Both the position numbers and the translations under genes were made by a program. Shown one piece after another: positions 48,775 through 63,649 of a stretch of DNA of 64,000 nucleotides. The stretch lies in the NCBI GenBank assembly GCA_040743155.1, contig JBFLJU010000001.1, forward strand, positions 1,981,144 through 2,045,143. The letters are read 5' to 3'. Origin of the DNA: Cycloclasticus sp. GTDB taxonomy: Bacteria; Pseudomonadota; Gammaproteobacteria; Methylococcales; Cycloclasticaceae. How positions within the stretch are numbered: the first letter of the stretch is position 1; each line of letters begins with the position of its first letter. The notes under the pieces are model-generated. The model ran no database searches. It was not told the origin of the DNA and worked only from the letters and a program-made list of their open reading frames with translations.

Positions 48775-50735
48775 ATTACATTATCTACGGGTATCCGCTT
48801 TTCATTTTGTTGCTGCTTACTTGACACAATCCCTAGAATTCCGGATTGCGGTTTAAAACCGCTGACAACTTCTACTAAAACTGCTCTAATCGCACCAACG
48901 TCATATTGTTCCGCTGCATTACCTAGCCTTATTAATATTTTCTCCAGCGCCATCCAAGGCACCTCATCCTCTTCGGCGCACATAATTTTAGGGTGCTCGG
49001 TGGAAGATACGTTATTACCAATCAGTAATTCTTCGTACAGTTTTTCACCCGGCCTAAGCCCGGTGTACTTAATATCTAGGTCACCGTCGGGCTGATTTTC
49101 ATCACGCACTTCCAAACCACTCAAATGAATCATCTTTCGTGCCAGATCAAGGATATTGACTGGCTCTCCCATATCCAACACAAACACATCACCACCCTTC
49201 ATCATGGCCCCCGCCTGAATCACTAACTGCGCTGCTTCCGGTATGGTCATAAAGTAACGGATTACTTTGGGGTCTGTCACCGTTACTGGGCCACCCTGTT
49301 GGATTTGCTTTTTAAATAAAGGAATAACCGACCCCGATGAACCCAGCACATTGCCAAATCGCACCATGCTAAATCGCGTGCCGTCAGTTTCCTTATCCAA
49401 CGCTTGCAAAACAAGCTCAGCCACACGCTTGGATGCACCCATTATGTTTGTTGGGCGAACTGCCTTATCCGTTGAAATAAGAATGAACGAGGCCACACCT
49501 GCCGCGATTGCCGCTTGCGCTGTATATAGCGTACCCAATACATTATTTTGAATCGCTTCACTTGGGTTTTGTTCCACCAACGGCACGTGCTTATAAGCCG
49601 CCGCATGGTAAATGGTCTCCACTTTGCATTCTGAGCAAACCTTCTCAATCCTGTTTTTATTAAAGACCGACCCTAGCACTGGCAAAACATTAACCGGCTC
49701 ACCGTAACCTAAAGTTTCATGCAATTGAGCTAGCTCTTTCTCCAAGGCATAAAGCGCATATTCACTATTTTCAAACAGAATTAACTCTCGCGGTTGCAAA
49801 CGTAAAATTTGTCGGCAAAGTTCTGAACCGATTGAACCACCAGCACCCGTTACCATGACAATTTTACTGCTTATATTTCTCCCCATTAACGATTCATTCG
49901 GCGCAACCGGATCACGGCCTAGCAAGTCTTCAATATCAATATCGCGAATATCGTCAACCGTCACCTCTCCCTTTGCTATTTCGGCAAATGTTGGCAATGT
50001 CTTCACCTTTACAGGGTAGGGTTCCAGTAAGGCGATGATTTGCTGACGACGATGACGAGAGATAGACGGCATCGCCAACAAGACATCTGTCACACCGTGT
50101 CTCCCAACTAAGCGGCTTAAATCAGTAAAAGGGAATACTCGAAGGCTATGAATTTGACGTTTATGTAACGAAATATCATCATCAATAAAGCCAGCAACTA
50201 ATATATCACTCCTTAAAGCCAGCTGATCTGCCAACTGTACGCCAGAAGAACCAGCACCATAAATCAGCATTCTATGACCGCTGGCAGGGTTCTCCTTGCC
50301 GCCCAAAAGACCAGCAAACCACCAACGAGCAATCATTCGGCTGCCGCCAATTGTCAGAAGCACCAAAACCCAATTAATAATATGTACTGAACGCGGAACG
50401 TGATCTATTCCTACCAGCAAAACCAAGGCAGCCAATAGTAAAGCGTAAAGTGATACCGCCTTTACAACCACCCACAAGGAATAAAAGCCCAAATAACGAA
50501 CAATTGCTCGATATAAACCCAACCTAATGAAAATTGGCACAGCAACAAAAGGAGCAAATAGAAACAAAATACCCACGTCCGATTTGGGCCAATATAGCTC
50601 CCCCAAACGTAAAGAAAATGAGAGCCAAAGCGTAGCTATTATTACTAAGGTATCAAAAAATAATGTAATACCTCGTTTTACCTGGCGATTTTGAGAGAGT
50701 AGCCATTTTGGCAGTGAAAACACAAGCTTATCCAT
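48750..50735 (-). CDS. WbpM/CapD-like nucleotide-sugar 4,6-dehydratase (polysaccharide biosynthesis)
   Basis: This 661-residue inner-membrane protein has about four N-terminal membrane segments (25-135), a degenerate Rossmann domain (158-240) and a catalytic SDR domain with GAGGSIG (297-303), STDKAVRPTN (421-430) and the M432-x3-K436 pair. The Met in place of the usual Tyr is characteristic of the WbpM/FlaA1 UDP-GlcNAc 4,6-dehydratases that start UDP-QuiNAc/FucNAc-type sugar synthesis. WbpM of Pseudomonas is 665 residues. Its last residues (MDSRNG) are encoded by the 13-bp repeat. Confidence 0.93.
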   Translation of the reverse strand: MDKLVFSLPKWLLSQNRQVKRGITLFFDTLVIIATLWLSFSLRLGELYWPKSDVGILFLFAPFVAVPIFIRLGLYRAIVRYLGFYSLWVVVKAVSLYALLLAALVLLVGIDHVPRSVHIINWVLVLLTIGGSRMIARWWFAGLLGGKENPASGHRMLIYGAGSSGVQLADQLALRSDILVAGFIDDDISLHKRQIHSLRVFPFTDLSRLVGRHGVTDVLLAMPSISRHRRQQIIALLEPYPVKVKTLPTFAEIAKGEVTVDDIRDIDIEDLLGRDPVAPNESLMGRNISSKIVMVTGAGGSIGSELCRQILRLQPRELILFENSEYALYALEKELAQLHETLGYGEPVNVLPVLGSVFNKNRIEKVCSECKVETIYHAAAYKHVPLVEQNPSEAIQNNVLGTLYTAQAAIAAGVASFILISTDKAVRPTNIMGASKRVAELVLQALDKETDGTRFSMVRFGNVLGSSGSVIPLFKKQIQQGGPVTVTDPKVIRYFMTIPEAAQLVIQAGAMMKGGDVFVLDMGEPVNILDLARKMIHLSGLEVRDENQPDGDLDIKYTGLRPGEKLYEELLIGNNVSSTEHPKIMCAEEDEVPWMALEKILIRLGNAAEQYDVGAIRAVLVEVVSGFKPQSGILGIVSSKQQQNEKRIPVDNVIEMDSRNG

Positions 50736-50822
50736 GCTGAAATTTGTATACTGAGTTTATCTTCATATAGACCAACAATTACGATGTGAAATACCAAAAC
50801 CCCATTTGTTTTGGATAATATA

Positions 50823-50844
50823 TTTTATAATTTTTATTATAAAA
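50823..50844. repeat. AT-only perfect hairpin
   Basis: TTTTATAAT (50823-50831), TTTT, ATTATAAAA (50836-50844). It lies between the hipBA-like relic and the dehydratase gene. It may overlap the promoter of the dehydratase-galU-pgi unit. Confidence 0.5.
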
Positions 50845-50867
50845 TCCAAGCTACTCCATTAAGCTCG

Positions 50868-51246
50868 CTAAATGCTCGAGTACTTTTCGCTTATCCATTG
50901 CCCCGCCTTTACGATGTAATCATCCAGTTTAAGTGTAGCTTGGTTTCAACCTGAAACAGCACTTTTGGCCGCACACCACTTAAAAGTGGGAATTGCCACG
51001 AAGCATAACAGGAGCCTACCACGTAACCCCTCAAGTGTTTGAAGTACCGTTTCCCTTTTAACTGTAGTTCATATCCTAAGTAGGCAACGATTTTGTGCCC
51101 CTTCCGCATACCATTGACACTCGCCCGCCAATTTTCTAGCGCGTTAATCGTTACACGCGAAAGGCCTGTATGTTCCGCCAGCACATGTTAAAAATTTTAT
51201 TCTCGACTGACGCAAGTAATACGCAACCTAACTCTTTAAAATCCAT
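50868..51246 (-). pseudogene. Decayed hipBA-like module (XRE regulator plus HipA-kinase fragment)
   Basis: The remnant opens with a good ribosome site (AGGTGG) and ATG at 51246 encoding MDFKELGCVLLASVENK, an XRE-type N-terminus. The frame then breaks near 51186, and the recognition helix continues in another frame (LAEHTGLSRVTINALENWRAS, then YLGYELQL). Further on the same frame reads FPLLSGVRPKVLFQ, resembling the SGVQPKVL block of HipA kinases. After a second shift near 50936, TLKLDDYIVKAG (50901-50936) resembles the next HipA core strand, ending at a stop at 50868. The N-terminal HipA subdomain and all C-terminal catalytic parts are missing. The HTH part is clear; the HipA part is a motif-based inference. 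Confidence 0.6.
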
Positions 51247-51288
51247 ATTTACCACCTAAATTTAAAGTATTTAATGCGAGCTGAACAC

Positions 51289-51849
51289 TTAGTGCGAGAC
51301 ACCATCCCGCCTTATCACTTTTACAAACGTTAACCAAAGAATATAGATATCGAAGAAAAATGATCGCCGCCGTAAATACTCAGCATCTAAATCAACTTTT
51401 TGAAAAACGGGAAGCTCGTCTCGACCATTCACCTGCGCCCAACCGGTTAAACCCGGCAATAATTCATGCACACTTTTTTCTGTCCGGAACACAATCAGAT
51501 CCTCCTGATTAAACAGTGCAGGACGGGGCCCAACAAAGCTCATATCACCTTTTAAAATGCACCATAACTGAGGTAGTTCATCTAAACTAGATTTGCGCAG
51601 AAAGTCACCTATTGGCGTCAGAACACTTTTAGGGTCTTGCAATAAATGAGTCGCAACAGCAGGCGTATCAATCTTCATACTCCGAAACTTGGGCATTTTA
51701 AAAATCACATTATCAATACCTACCCGATCCGACCAATACAGCGCAGGGCCTTTTGAGGTTAATCGCACCACAATAGCTACAAGGCAAATTGGAACAACCA
51801 ACATAAAAACGGCAAGCAACGCCAATAACAGATCAAACAGTCTTTTCAT
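51289..51849 (-). CDS. Monotopic phosphoglycosyl transferase (initiating sugar transferase)
   Basis: This 186-residue PglC/WecP-type enzyme transfers a sugar-1-phosphate from a UDP-sugar to undecaprenyl phosphate, the first step of repeat-unit assembly. A re-entrant N-terminal hydrophobic helix (about 5-30), FRSMK, the catalytic D90-E91 (SSLDELPQL), GDMSFVGPRP and PGLTGWAQVNGRDEL are all present. It is the minimal (non-WbaP) size class. It overlaps the preceding epimerase gene by 17 bases, suggesting that the epimerase makes its substrate. Confidence 0.93.
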   Translation of the reverse strand: MKRLFDLLLALLAVFMLVVPICLVAIVVRLTSKGPALYWSDRVGIDNVIFKMPKFRSMKIDTPAVATHLLQDPKSVLTPIGDFLRKSSLDELPQLWCILKGDMSFVGPRPALFNQEDLIVFRTEKSVHELLPGLTGWAQVNGRDELPVFQKVDLDAEYLRRRSFFFDIYILWLTFVKVIRRDGVSH

Positions 51850-55425: not shown

Positions 55426-56285
55426 TCAGCATACCATCCTTTCGTCTTTCAACATCCATCGCAGTGTTGCCTCTAATTCCAATGGCTGCCAGCCATCTAT
55501 TAACTGTCTCAATCGTGAATTATCACCCGCAAGAACCCGCACTTCATTTGCACGAACAAAATCAGGATTCACCTGGACTTCAATCTGCTGCCCAGTAATC
55601 TTTTCACACAAGCCAATAACTTCTCGTAAGGTATAAGCATTCCCAGAACAAACATTAATGGTTTCACCTACCGGGCAAGCCTCCATCAATTTTCTATAAG
55701 CCTCCGATACGGATCGAACATCCCCAAAATCCCTAGAAACATCCAAGTTCCCCAGTTCAATAACTTTTTTATTCTCACGAAAATGCGCCACTATCTTAGG
55801 GATCAAAAACTTATCGTCTTGCCCAATACCCGTGTAGTTAAATGGTCGCGTAATAAACAGTGGTAACCTGTCTGCCCATAACCGCGCCATATTTTCCATC
55901 GCAAGTTTACTAACCGCATAATCATTGGCCGGGTCTGGCAAAGCACTTTCAGCCAAAATACCTTCCGAGCGATTACCATACACATTAGCACTACTTGCCA
56001 ACAACACCGCACGTACATAAGAGGCATGTTCCGCCAAAGAGCTCAGCAAGTTACGGGTTCCTAATAAATTCACTTGATAAAATGCATTCGCATCACCATG
56101 CCCAACAAAGGCAACCCCTGCAAGGTGAACAACCGCTTCCGGCTGTATTCGCTTTACTTCAGCGGCAATTGCGTCATATTCATTTAAATCTGCTTGTAAG
56201 CCAATAACAACGTGTCCATTCGCTTCAAGCTCGGTTTTTAGGTGTTGCCCTGTAAAACCATTAAGCCCCGTCACTAATACTCGCA

Positions 56286-56286
<1 letters not shown>
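55426..56286 (-). CDS. rmd: GDP-6-deoxy-D-mannose reductase (GDP-D-rhamnose synthase)
   Basis: This 286-residue SDR has GLNGFTGQHL at the NAD(P) site and the catalytic Y-x3-K in DYAVSKLAMENM. It reduces the 4-keto intermediate made by Gmd to GDP-D-rhamnose. Length and motifs fit Rmd rather than the larger epimerase-reductase Fcl/WcaG that leads to GDP-L-fucose. It overlaps the gmd stop by one base. Confidence 0.9.
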
Positions 56287-57966
<1,680 letters not shown>

Positions 57967-57970
<4 letters not shown>

Positions 57971-58713
57971 AAAGAAAGCCGCTTAAATATCGCTTCGGGA
58001 ATATGTCGAATAACCAGCATGATCCAACGCCAAACCCCAGGTAAATAAACTGCATTTCGCCGCTGTTCGACAGCTTTCACAATACCTTGGGCAATAGTTT
58101 CTGGCTGCACCCACAATAGCCCCTTTTTATCAAACTGCACAGTCATAGGTGTATCGACAAAACCGGGCTTGATCGACACTACGGCCACACCCTTTTTCGC
58201 CAACCGATTTCGCAAACCCTGCAAAAATATGGTTACCATGCCTTTAGCTGCCCCATAGACATAATTACTCTGCCGGCCACGATCACCCGCCACAGAACTA
58301 ATAGCAGCGATAACACCTGAGCCTTGCGCTTCAAACCGATTCGCGGCCAAAGTAAGCAGTGAAATCACACTCAACGCATTGGTTTGTATCTCGTCCATTG
58401 TCTGACCAACAGATAACTCACAAGCCTTTTGATCTGGCAGGGTACCATGGGCGATGAAAACCACGTCGACTCCACCCAATACCGCTTCGGCACGAGAAAA
58501 TATACTCTCATGCTGCTCAAGATCGTTCAGGTTAGCGGACATGCTGTCTAAATACTGTCCAGGGGAGGCACGTACGCGTAAATCCGCCAACTGATTTTCC
58601 AGTTTGGCCCTGTCACGTCCGACAAGAAAGAGACTATGCCCCTGAGCCACCCAGAGACGAGCGCAAGCACACGCGATAGCCGAGGTAGCCCCAAAAATAA
58701 TAAATCGTTTCAT
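57967..58713 (-). CDS. DprE2-like short-chain reductase
   Basis: This 248-residue SDR has the nucleotide motif GATSAIACACARLW (8-21), ISSVAGDRGRQSNYVYGAAKG with the catalytic Y-x3-K, and KPGFVDTPMT. It is similar in layout to mycobacterial DprE2, which reduces the keto intermediate to decaprenyl-phosphoryl-D-arabinofuranose. It stands directly behind the DprE1-like gene (3-base gap), as in actinobacteria. Confidence 0.88.
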
Positions 58714-58716
58714 AAA

Positions 58717-60012
58717 TTACTCCTTCACTCGCCGCCAAAAACTGGACGAGAATTGTGGATCGATAAAAGTACTAAACTGTTCCCACAAGGGGTACGCCGA
58801 GCGAAACAACTCACTAGGCATACGCGCATCTTTGGCGGGATAAAGTGCGCCACCTGCCTCACGCACCACGGCGTCCAACTCATTTAGTAAGCGCAGAGTG
58901 CGTTTACCTTGATTAGGAAAGTCCAGCGCCAAAGTCGCGCCAGGGCGCGGAAAAGATAGCATACCTTGTGATATTTTACTTCCAAATGTTTTTAGTACGG
59001 CGAGAAAGGACCCGCTTCCACTATTTGCAATGATGTTAAGCAGGTCACGAATACCCTCTTGACTGGCTTCAGGAGGTAATACGCATTGATACTGGAAGAA
59101 TCCCTTTCTGCCATACATCCTGTTCCATTCAAGCATTCCATCTAAAGGATAGAAATAAGGTTTGTAATGCGTTAAAGCCAGCCCTTTTTTTATAGGCTTG
59201 TTATAGTACAACAGATTAAAAGCACGCACACTGAGAGTGTTAACGAGGGAGAAAGGCGGATCCACGGGGAAGCGTCTTGGGCGCTCCTTCCATGTAGGCA
59301 AATCGGCTTGCGCAGGAGCATGCTGACCTAGCATCAAAATTCCTCGACCTTGTCGTTTGCCTGTAGCGGTACAATCAATCCAGGCCACGGTATAAGGCCA
59401 TTGCGATTCAGCCTCAGCACTAAGCTCCCAAAAGTCATCCAAACTATGAAATCGTTTCGACTCAGTGATCATAAATGGATTAATGATAGGTAGCAGCTGC
59501 AATTCCACCCAAGTAATAAGCCCCGTCAAACCGAGGCCACCTATAGTTGCCCGAAACCAGTCGATGTTCTTGTCCGGGCAGCACAGTTTGCGTTCTCCGT
59601 CAGAACGGAGCAGCTCAAATTTGCGAACATGATGGCCGAAATTACCCTGTATGTGATGATTTTTACCATGCACATCATTGGCGATAGCTCCTCCAACGGT
59701 AACAAAGCGCGTACCTGGCGTAACTGGCAAAAACCACCCTTGGGGAACGACAAGATCCAAAATATCAGCTAGGAGTACGCCACTCTCGCAAACAAGCACC
59801 CCCGTAGATTCGTCAAAGGCTATAAATCGATCCATCCGCCGTGTGCGAAGCAGTACCCCTCCTTCGTTCAGGCAAACATCTCCATAGCTACGCCCACTGC
59901 CAAAAGCAAGTAAAGGTCCGCTCGTGATGGGCAAAGACTCATGACGATGAACAGCATCCAGCACATTAGTATGGCTAACTAATGGATAACGGTTCCAAGA
60001 TGTTATCATCAT
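58717..60012 (-). CDS. DprE1-like FAD-dependent oxidase
   Basis: This 431-residue VAO-family flavoenzyme (mycobacterial DprE1 is 461) oxidises the 2'-OH of polyprenyl-phosphoryl-ribose in the first half of epimerisation to arabinose. The FAD-binding region includes AFGSGRSYGDVCLNEGG, VTPGTRFVTVGGAIANDVHGKNHHIQGNFGHHV and GLGLTGLITWVELQL. The C-terminal ALDFPNQG and PAKDARMPSELFRSAYPLWEQF are DprE1-like. It begins 1 base after the stop of the flippase-like gene. Confidence 0.9.
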   Translation of the reverse strand: MMITSWNRYPLVSHTNVLDAVHRHESLPITSGPLLAFGSGRSYGDVCLNEGGVLLRTRRMDRFIAFDESTGVLVCESGVLLADILDLVVPQGWFLPVTPGTRFVTVGGAIANDVHGKNHHIQGNFGHHVRKFELLRSDGERKLCCPDKNIDWFRATIGGLGLTGLITWVELQLLPIINPFMITESKRFHSLDDFWELSAEAESQWPYTVAWIDCTATGKRQGRGILMLGQHAPAQADLPTWKERPRRFPVDPPFSLVNTLSVRAFNLLYYNKPIKKGLALTHYKPYFYPLDGMLEWNRMYGRKGFFQYQCVLPPEASQEGIRDLLNIIANSGSGSFLAVLKTFGSKISQGMLSFPRPGATLALDFPNQGKRTLRLLNELDAVVREAGGALYPAKDARMPSELFRSAYPLWEQFSTFIDPQFSSSFWRRVKE

Positions 60013-60013
60013 G

Positions 60014-60985
60014 TCAGGTATTCACCGAAGCTACATCATTCCGTAATACTCGGCCTCCAGAAAAAAGCGTTATCCCACCTAACCCTACCGCGAACCAGAG
60101 CGTAGTTAGGCGTATGATTACTGTCGCCGCGACAGCTTGCGCCTCGGGTATATCTGCCCATATGAGCAACGCAACCATAACTGCCTCAGCACCGCCCAAG
60201 CCTCCAGGGAGAAAACTAAGCGCACCAGCCAGCATAGAAAGCGCATAAACAGAGAATGCGAATGCAAAGCTAACCTCGAACCCCATCCAATGCAAGATTA
60301 AATAAAAAGCAAAAGCTTCAGCTGACCACGCGATCAAACTTAAGGTCGTCGCCAGCACTAGAAGCCGTGGCGTGTGGCAGCGGCGGGCTTCGATCAACAT
60401 CTTCAGCACATGATGGCCAGCACGTGCTATTTTACTGGTGCGGTTTGCAAACCGCGCCAACAACTTAGTCAACAGGCCAACTCTAGATAAAAGTAGCAGC
60501 CCACCCCCTACAAGTACCACTCCAAAAATTACCACGCCCCCTCCTTGCGGATAAAGTGACACTCCTAATAAAGTCATAAGAACAATTGCAACCAAATCCG
60601 AAAGACGTTCACTCAGAAAAGCCGCTGTACTACTTGTAAACGACATACCACGTGCTTCAAGAAAAACGCCCCGCAACATTTCTCCAGCCTTACCAGGTGT
60701 GGTGGTGAGTGCAAACCCAGCCACGTAAATAACCGCACTTGGTCCATGACCTACCGCATTACCCAGAGCAGAAAGGTACATCTGCCAGCGTACAAAGCGT
60801 AGACCATAATTAACAAGTGATAATGCAAGTGCTATAACCATCCCGGCTAGCCCCACTGAAGCAAAGGCGTCAAGCACATCCTGCCAGCCACCCCAGAGTG
60901 AGAAAGCAAGATAACCAAACGCTGCTAACGCGATGGATGCGATTAGAGCATGTACCTGCCGCCCTTTTAGAAAGGAAGTAATCAT
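60014..60985 (-). CDS. Flippase-like / lysylphosphatidylglycerol-synthase TM-domain protein
   Basis: This 323-residue integral membrane protein of the UPF0104/AglD-like family has about 8 hydrophobic segments and family marks such as AGFALTTTPGKAGEMLRGVFL and LSFLPGGLGGAEAVM. I place the start at ATG 60985, overlapping the UbiA stop by 4 bases (ATGA), rather than 30 bases upstream. It could translocate the lipid-linked arabinofuranose or another lipid-linked sugar; this is inferred from its place between the UbiA and DprE1 genes. Confidence 0.85.
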   Translation of the reverse strand: MITSFLKGRQVHALIASIALAAFGYLAFSLWGGWQDVLDAFASVGLAGMVIALALSLVNYGLRFVRWQMYLSALGNAVGHGPSAVIYVAGFALTTTPGKAGEMLRGVFLEARGMSFTSSTAAFLSERLSDLVAIVLMTLLGVSLYPQGGGVVIFGVVLVGGGLLLLSRVGLLTKLLARFANRTSKIARAGHHVLKMLIEARRCHTPRLLVLATTLSLIAWSAEAFAFYLILHWMGFEVSFAFAFSVYALSMLAGALSFLPGGLGGAEAVMVALLIWADIPEAQAVAATVIIRLTTLWFAVGLGGITLFSGGRVLRNDVASVNT

Positions 60986-61857
60986 ATCAACACAAACAGG
61001 GTTACAGAAACCCATGCAGTAATAGTCAAAAGAAGATGCCGGTCGGAATATAGATCTCGAGCAGTATCATTCCCTTTCCCCTTAAGATGTAAAAGAAAAA
61101 TATATCGGAAAATTCCATACACAACAAACGGCACCGTATAAATCAATGCACTGGTACCATGTAGCGCAACTGTTTCAGTGCTAACGGTATAAAGACTGTA
61201 GGTCAGGATCGTACATGCTGCAGTAATCGCCATAAATTGCTCGATCATCATTGGGCTATAGTCATCCAAAACCCGGCGTGTCAGCGCACGATCATGAACA
61301 CCCGCTTGCTCTAGCGCCAACAACTCGGCTCTTCGTTTGGCAAAACCAAGAAATAGGGTAAGCATCAGCCCGCACAGTAATAACCAAGACGAGGGTGCAA
61401 TGCTAAGCCCCACCGTTCCAACGAGAATCCGCAGCATAAACCCTGTGGAGATAATAAACACATCCAGCACAGCAACATGCTTCCAGCGCCACGAGTAGCC
61501 GATATTCAATAACGCATAAGCAAGAACAAAGACGAACGCCCATAGGCTTACAAAGGAAGCAAGCGCGAAAGCCAACATTGCAAATCCCCCACTCAACCAC
61601 CAACCCATACGCAAGGAAATGGCGCCGCAAGCTAACGGTCGATTTCTCTTGGTAGGGTGCTGACGATCTGCCTCGATATCGAGAATATCATTGAGTACAT
61701 ACACCGCGCTAGCCACCGCACAAAAAGAGAGGAAAGCAATCCCTACAGAATAAAGTACTGACTGCTACCATTGACCCGAAAAAACCACGCCCAGTAAAAC
61801 GAAACTATTCTTAATGTACTGGTGGGGGCGGATTAATTTAATAAACTTATTACTCAT
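60982..61857 (-). pseudogene. UbiA-family polyprenyl-phosphate phosphoribosyltransferase interrupted by an in-frame TAG
   Basis: The full frame runs from ATG 61857, one base after the upstream stop (TGAAATG), to 60982, giving about 291 codons. Codon 31 is TAG (61765-61767), inside VFSGQW-stop-QSVLYSVGIAF; sequence on both sides continues as one UbiA protein. The prenyl-phosphate motif NDILDIEADRQHPTKRNRP starts at codon 56, and the AKRRAELL / DDYSPMMIEQ region matches decaprenyl-phosphate phosphoribosyltransferase (DPPR synthase). A GTG at 61716 could start a shortened protein missing TM1 but has no ribosome site. The change may be a real nonsense mutation (CAG to TAG), a read-through codon or a sequencing error. 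Confidence 0.8.
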
Positions 61858-61858
61858 T

Positions 61859-63649
61859 TCAAAGCCCTGTAATAGTAAATGATTCAACCGCTATACCAAG
61901 ATTGCGAGCATCTTCACTAATTTTTAATGTCTTTGGCGAGGTAGCATCCGGAATTTGTAATGTAATTAGGTTGGCCTCCTTAACAAACGAGCGAGGTATA
62001 ACAAAGCGAATTTCTGACATAGGTTGTTCTCCAAACACGAATTCGGCGACAAACTTATTATTTGCTTCAATACGTAACCGCTGCTTATCATGGCTTGCTG
62101 TAACAAACGGAGCCATGTTTAACGAGATCGCAATAGCCCTCCCAACCGAGGACTTAAAACCAAATCGCGCAGCATTGCTTTCAGTCCACCGAAAATTTGG
62201 CTCAGGCCCACTCCAGCCAGAAATAAGGTAAGGTTCTGCGGCCGAGTCATTCAAAAAAATGGACTCGCCAGATTTAAATACCGGGAAATCTCTACTTATC
62301 TCAGGGGTGATAAAACCAGCAAGAAATTGTGGATGACTCCAGTCCCAAAGTCTCTCACTGTGCTCATCAACATTGTTTGGGCGAACATTCCATATCGAAG
62401 CATCATGACTGTAAGCCCCGCGAACATGCATGAACACACTAATAGCTATCAAAATCACAACGCCAACAGCATGTGGTAGTGTGTTTTTCGAGCCTACTAT
62501 GCTCCATTTGTCATTCACTTCCCCACCAGTACTAGCAGCTTGTAATGAAATAATTGCAACAAGCATAACCCAGGGCACTACATCCGTCATAAACCTAGGA
62601 CCATAGGAATGGCCGCCCCACCAATGTGGGAACCCAGAGACAACGACCCAATGCAGAATTATTGTTGCTACAGAAACAAAGACTAATGATCTTTCCTGAA
62701 CGTATTGGCGAAATACTAACAGTGCTATGACAATAGAAAAGATGAATGGAGAATAAATAAGCAAACCTCTTGCAGGGCTTATCATATTTCCAGCCAAAGC
62801 AACAAAGAAGGTATCTGACCCTATTCTGCCAGCAGCATAGTAAGAGGGAAGAAAAGTACCAAAGTTATATTGAGAGTATAATAAAAACCCTGCAAGCCAT
62901 GCCAACCCAATCAAACAGTAGGTAATAAAAACAGGACGGAAATAAACCAGCACCAGCACACTTACGGCAATAGTGCTGATACTAGATGTTGGCCGTACAA
63001 AGTACATCCATGCAACAAGCGTGGCAAGGAGCATTGGATTGGGTGATTTTTTTTCTTGTACGCCTCGCCAAACAAGAAAAATTACTGATGATAGTAGCAG
63101 CAAAAGCCAAGTGTGCGCCCACATTGCTCTGGATGCGGTGCTCAGTAGTGGCGTTGCTAAAGCAGCAGTTAGCGCGACCGCAAAACTGAAGGGTCTATTC
63201 AGTGAAACCCTACTTGTAAAGTAAAGAATAGTGACCGTAATTGAAATTAAAAATGCTGCTAAAATTCGTTCAATTTTTGCTTCGCCTTTGAGATTGTACG
63301 TGCCGTTTTCATTGACGGCGCTTAAACCAAATTCATTCAATACTGCTACAAATGGAACAGATAGAATTGAAGACCCATGAGGAAAGTAGTAGAAAAGTTT
63401 TTCTCCGCTCACTTCGACCTGATATGGATACCCACTCTTTACAATACCAGGCTTAGAAAAGGGCTCACTTCTCTCTATATTATATCCATCAAGCCTGACT
63501 GTTCCGTAGTCAATTAATGACTGGCTAACCATCATAGAATAGTTTGAATCACTCACTTGAATTACAGGTGCACTTAAATAAAAAATGGCGCAAAAAGAAA
63601 ACAAAAATAATGCCGCTCTCTCTTGTAGAATCAGATTGATTATCCGCAT
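61859..63649 (-). CDS. Polytopic membrane protein, GT-C glycosyltransferase-like
   Basis: This 596-residue protein has about 11 predicted membrane segments in residues 10-400 and a ~170-residue C-terminal periplasmic domain (from about 425) with beta-rich sequence. A first periplasmic loop bearing acidic residues, followed by AMWAHTWLLLLLSSVIFLVW and HWWGGHSYGPRFMTDVVPW, gives it the look of GT-C lipid-phosphate-sugar-dependent transferases. Next to the arabinofuranose genes it is a candidate arabinofuranosyltransferase. Family identity is not certain. It overlaps the upstream GT4 stop by 10 bases and nearly touches the UbiA start. Confidence 0.75.
   Translation of the reverse strand: MRIINLILQERAALFLFSFCAIFYLSAPVIQVSDSNYSMMVSQSLIDYGTVRLDGYNIERSEPFSKPGIVKSGYPYQVEVSGEKLFYYFPHGSSILSVPFVAVLNEFGLSAVNENGTYNLKGEAKIERILAAFLISITVTILYFTSRVSLNRPFSFAVALTAALATPLLSTASRAMWAHTWLLLLLSSVIFLVWRGVQEKKSPNPMLLATLVAWMYFVRPTSSISTIAVSVLVLVYFRPVFITYCLIGLAWLAGFLLYSQYNFGTFLPSYYAAGRIGSDTFFVALAGNMISPARGLLIYSPFIFSIVIALLVFRQYVQERSLVFVSVATIILHWVVVSGFPHWWGGHSYGPRFMTDVVPWVMLVAIISLQAASTGGEVNDKWSIVGSKNTLPHAVGVVILIAISVFMHVRGAYSHDASIWNVRPNNVDEHSERLWDWSHPQFLAGFITPEISRDFPVFKSGESIFLNDSAAEPYLISGWSGPEPNFRWTESNAARFGFKSSVGRAIAISLNMAPFVTASHDKQRLRIEANNKFVAEFVFGEQPMSEIRFVIPRSFVKEANLITLQIPDATSPKTLKISEDARNLGIAVESFTITGL

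Follow-up and report, generated by a model that had tools for sequence, protein, structure and literature searches.

The window analyzed here (64,000 nucleotides of Cycloclasticus sp., contig JBFLJU010000001.1) was found to carry a gene for a UbiA-type polyprenyl-phosphate phosphoribosyltransferase whose reading frame is broken by a single TAG at codon 31. This TAG is probably a true stop, which would make the gene a recent null allele in the sequenced genome. From this one genome we infer both that the base is real and that the strain has an arabinofuranose-less phenotype.

The interrupted frame

The frame is located on the minus strand and extends from ATG 61857 to TGA 60982-60984 (291 codons plus stop).

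60982..61857, minus strand: interrupted UbiA-type polyprenyl-phosphate phosphoribosyltransferase frame (NF008977 match; Rv3806c 8j8j model match)
61765..61767, minus strand: in-frame TAG at codon 31; the short loop that holds it joins helix 12-27 to helix 32-64

The preliminary description had reported one TAG at codon 31 within an open frame coupled to the stop of the preceding gene, and both observations were confirmed. A whole-genome search of the source assembly (a single contig of 2,563,313 bases, 99.94% complete with 0.11% contamination) returned the same single internal TAG in a single-copy gene, no second copy being found in the genome. The TGA of the preceding gene (61859-61861) is one base away from the ATG, and close relatives start ~7–11 codons ahead of the RPHQ motif, as does the frame here, so that the start is well placed. 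The gene is not an uninterrupted coding sequence owing to the TAG. The frame aligns end to end over the TAG with intact proteins at 60–70% identity and conserved residues are found in codons 32-291, which argues that the interrupted frame is more than a chance occurrence.

Enzyme family and substrate-binding residues

Codons 48-291 alone gave NF008977 (decaprenyl-phosphate phosphoribosyltransferase) as the best curated model (E 2.7e-62), with a score of 211 bits that is below the whole-protein cut-off of 234, 47 codons being missing from the query. With the TAG read as X, the protein matches Rv3806c of M. tuberculosis in the PDB (E 1.6e-31), which places it with the Rv3806c-type phosphoribosyltransferases, and its predicted structure (built with 13 relatives, mean pLDDT 82.7) aligns with 8j8j at Z 28.3 over 283 residues. 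The substrate-binding residues of this fold (Arg22, Lys28, an NDxxD-type motif and a K/R cluster) were also found, with R10, K16, D57/D60/D64, K70, and R73 all present in the interrupted frame.

61810..61830, minus strand: codons 10-16, RPHQYIK, in which R10 = Arg22 and K16 = Lys28 of Rv3806c (alignment)

In Rv3806c, the R22A substitution results in the loss of 93% of activity, Lys28 is in contact with the lipid phosphate as well as with the 5'-phosphate of PRPP, and the positively charged contacts to the lipid phosphate are described as essential to catalysis (PMC10994848). Intact UbiA motifs had been described downstream of the TAG; conserved residues are indeed kept there, but the RPHQ-x-x-KN motif with its two substrate-binding residues is upstream of it. 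The enzyme is predicted to make the first committed intermediate of the pathway, polyprenyl-phospho-5-phosphoribose.

Operon and probable O-antigen locus

The interrupted gene is part of a tightly packed operon, which also includes, after the epimerase/dehydratase, two GT4-type glycosyltransferases.

61859..63649, minus strand: membrane glycosyltransferase, 596 aa, putative GT-C (NF047440 E 1.5e-10, weak and below cut-off; GT-C from context)
60014..60985, minus strand: LPG-synthase-TM (flippase-like) membrane protein (PF03706 E 1e-48; relatives)
58717..60012, minus strand: DprE1-like FAD oxidase (NF053785 E 5.4e-104, below cut-off; full-length relatives)
57967..58713, minus strand: DprE2-like SDR reductase (PRK07102 above cut-off; DprE2 model E 1.2e-50, below cut-off)
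57326..57970, minus strand: HAD-IB phosphatase (TIGR01490 above cut-off)
56286..57323, minus strand: GDP-mannose 4,6-dehydratase, Gmd (TIGR01472 above cut-off)
55426..56286, minus strand: NAD-dependent sugar epimerase/dehydratase (PF16363/PF01370)

A donor pathway is represented by open homologues of DprE1 and DprE2 within the same operon, both scoring below the curated equivalog cut-offs. On the strength of these homologues, the sugar would be arabinofuranose, and the assignment of the gene family and of an arabinofuranose pathway in the preliminary description was right. The HAD-IB phosphatase likely takes off the 5'-phosphate, and the epimerase/dehydratase is, from its position, probably a GDP-deoxyhexose reductase. 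The cassette genes downstream of the interrupted frame are open and align over nearly their full length with relatives, in agreement with the earlier statement that the following pathway genes look intact.

Upstream of the operon are genes for a Wzt with a C-terminal domain, an ABC-2 permease and a methyltransferase with a long downstream region, together with a phosphomannomutase and a mannose-1-phosphate guanylyltransferase. By its gene content, the locus looks like an O-antigen locus of the ABC-transporter-dependent type with an arabinofuranose side-chain cassette. A gap in this surface-sugar locus (window 50735-51289) has a minus-strand open stretch of 92 codons resembling a helix-turn-helix fragment, which is possibly a remnant gene.

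Distribution and origin of the cassette

The gene order phosphoribosyltransferase, flippase, DprE1, DprE2 was also found in five other loci (L135, L047, L048, L050, and L051), accompanied in three of them by the HAD gene. Seventeen genomes of the same genus lack the phosphoribosyltransferase and have at most weak DprE1 matches (24–28% identity), and the cassette was therefore probably gained by horizontal acquisition. By tree path length, the nearest relative of the interrupted gene (window 60982-61857 with L047-L049) belongs to Desulfosporosinus (Bacillota) rather than to the order of the host. Given this nearest relative and the cassette order in common, the cassette has probably passed from one phylum to another. 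No relative was found on viral contigs.

Decoding of the TAG codon

Suppression of the stop had been suggested, along with a search of the genome for a tRNA reading UAG. No suppressor tRNA with a CUA anticodon was detected among 40 tRNA-family hits in the genome (family search, ARAGORN, and pattern search), 39 of which have an identified anticodon, the other being a 3' remnant of a tRNA-Asn. The sole pattern match with a CTA anticodon loop is a tRNA-Arg(UCU), hence no suppressor, and the weak 40th hit was ruled out as a 54-base near-copy of the tRNA-Asn 3' end. This near-copy (L133 527-580; G000:C1:1631526-1631579; 52/54 identical) lies ~970 kb from its source gene (G000:C1:657816-657888) and extends past the gene end; it has the look of a scar left when an element integrated at a tRNA gene.

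RF1 is intact (552 bits), and PylS gave matches solely below the curated cut-off, as was also the case in 12 of 14 control genomes. Among the 47 genes in the window, 8 terminate in TAG, as do ~43 of 215 long ORFs (about a fifth) in 484 kb sampled as 20 stretches, a small overlap between the window and L134 being counted twice. With neither a CUA tRNA nor loss of RF1 found in the genome, amber suppression or a recoded TAG is unsupported and, on all evidence available, TAG functions as a true stop here. The bases following it (window 61759-61767) fit the CARYYA consensus, a read-through signal known from plant viruses and not known from bacteria, and the window has this context after a stop no more often than chance would give (6 observed vs. 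4.9 expected).

A coding-potential scan for further in-frame stops in the 484 kb sampled gave 49 candidates; its sensitivity is poor, for it failed to pick up the UbiA TAG. Nearly all of these candidates were rejected because, as with neighbouring genes, a start codon follows only a few codons away, and four others that were inspected proved to be three gene pairs (e.g., transketolase-TAG-Pgk) and one low-complexity stretch.

Conservation of the gene and age of the stop

At 111 clade-conserved columns, the interrupted protein has 2 deviations; the ten intact relatives compared have between 1 and 11, and all but one of them have more than 2. Its end branch in the tree (0.23 changes per column) is about as long as those of most neighbours, or shorter. 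In simulated neutral decay, the chance that all 44 conserved sites are kept and no further stop appears falls below 5% past ~0.03 substitutions/site, which would place the loss at less than ~0.03–0.05 substitutions/site, a bound that is approximate because the 44 sites were picked where the window agrees. As the remainder of the gene is without decay, the loss would be recent; the stop is recent, or else not real. At W125 (window 61483-61485), 47 of 48 relatives have L, and the site adjoins an invariant lysine; this is perhaps an early hint that constraint has relaxed, and no other residue suggests it.

The residues at the TAG column vary among relatives, and the causal base change is for that reason not inferable. 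Of the three options in the preliminary description, a pathway that has just been switched off is the best supported, but the C-to-T direction given for the change cannot be read from a variable column. No homopolymer or short repeat run was found around the TAG (TGGTAGCAG). The repeat tract of a slippage-type switch is thus missing from the site, which has a point change only, and a "phase-like" loss is not borne out.

Possible restart downstream of the TAG

A restart of translation at GTG 61716 had also been proposed, and a second candidate was found shortly after it.

61714..61716, minus strand: GTG, codon 48, proposed restart, no Shine-Dalgarno match
61702..61704, minus strand: GTG, codon 52, alternative restart, weak mismatched GGTGG upstream

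The ribosome-binding site of GTG 61704, though mismatched, is somewhat better than that of GTG 61716. A product from either codon would be without helix 1, R10, and K16. Since these two residues lie before the TAG, a protein begun at GTG 61716 is unlikely to be active. Close relatives beginning at the equivalent of codon 48 had been named as a finding that would speak against an interruption; all ten of the closest (L002 and L047-L055) carry the N-terminal segment.

Interpretation of the interrupted gene

If the TAG ends translation, as we think probable, the phosphoribosyltransferase would be null and the first committed step lost. There would then be no lipid-linked pentose donor, and the O-polysaccharide would be made without its arabinofuranose side chain, the backbone genes being intact. 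Polarity is possible, as the ATG of the LPG-synthase-TM gene overlaps the UbiA TGA by 4 nt and the genes after it are spaced only a few bases apart; it would lower the expression of downstream genes, Gmd included. The main reading has to be weighed against an error in sequencing or assembly, or an allele carried by a minority of cells, with the gene intact in the living strain. The full conservation of the remainder of the gene and the branch that is not long speak for an error, as does the failure to recognise a further interrupted gene in the window; the intact downstream frame would be expected from an error as well as from efficient read-through. However, the assembly is one contig with the completeness and contamination given above and the window genes are otherwise open, and assemblies of this quality can, though they seldom do, contain a lone substitution error, so we regard this explanation as rather unlikely.

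Read-through by near-cognate tRNAs at a useful level, giving a low level of active enzyme, appears improbable. The stop sits in a loop where residues are variable in relatives, so an inserted residue should be tolerated, and E. coli TAG reporters reach about 0.5–0.8% read-through in the cold, but their mean is ~0.02–0.03% at 37°C (PMC11126739), and the lack of a suppressor tRNA among the hits, the intact RF1 and the chance-level CARYYA context all weigh against it. That low-level UAG read-through acts as a dial, with the stop codon and not a promoter setting the amount of arabinofuranose decoration, is scarcely credible. It is also very improbable that a shortened working enzyme arises by restart. 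Both GTGs are in frame shortly past the TAG and one has a weak Shine-Dalgarno-like stretch, but the product would lack helix 1 as well as the counterparts of Arg22 and Lys28, which Rv3806c is reported to require, and the N-terminal segment is kept in the closest relatives. A restart might nonetheless shield downstream genes from polarity, and one at GTG 61704 could soften it, with the enzyme still dead. A true stop in a recent null allele is thus the reading retained here.

Comparison with known systems

One close likeness is to Rv3806c (PDB 8j8j, 8j8k), with which the protein shares the fold over its whole length, the conserved RPxQ-x-x-KN segment, the cytoplasmic loop motifs and DprE1-like and DprE2-like neighbours. 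In contrast to Rv3806c, the gene here is broken and is located in an O-antigen locus, with a HAD phosphatase and an LPG-synthase-TM flippase where M. tuberculosis has Rv3807c and Rv3789. Close in logic are the three-component pentofuranose addition systems of Citrobacter youngae O1/O2, which likewise have a phosphoribosyltransferase, a HAD phosphatase, a putative flippase and a putative GT-C beside an ABC-transporter O-antigen locus; DprE1/E2 homologues have been predicted for arabinofuranose in such three-component O-antigen systems (PMC11127046). The cassette described here differs in that the phosphatase is a separate gene, the flippase is of the LPG-synthase-TM and not the MATE type, and the first enzyme is interrupted.

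A further parallel is wbeT of Vibrio cholerae O1, in which a small change truncates one modifying enzyme and the O antigen is altered (PMC9927444). That switch was proven by many strains and serology, whereas the present case is known from the sequence of one genome. Losses of O-antigen modification genes are already well known, as wbeT illustrates, and the finding is in this respect an ordinary one. The TAG in the UbiA-type gene does not show a new decoding and is most likely an ordinary recent loss or a sequencing error. If real, it would be a naturally occurring null allele that blocks a bacterial arabinofuranose pathway at its first step, outside mycobacteria, and a further case of O-antigen change via a single base, and the predicted role of the cassette would be readable from the polysaccharide of this strain.
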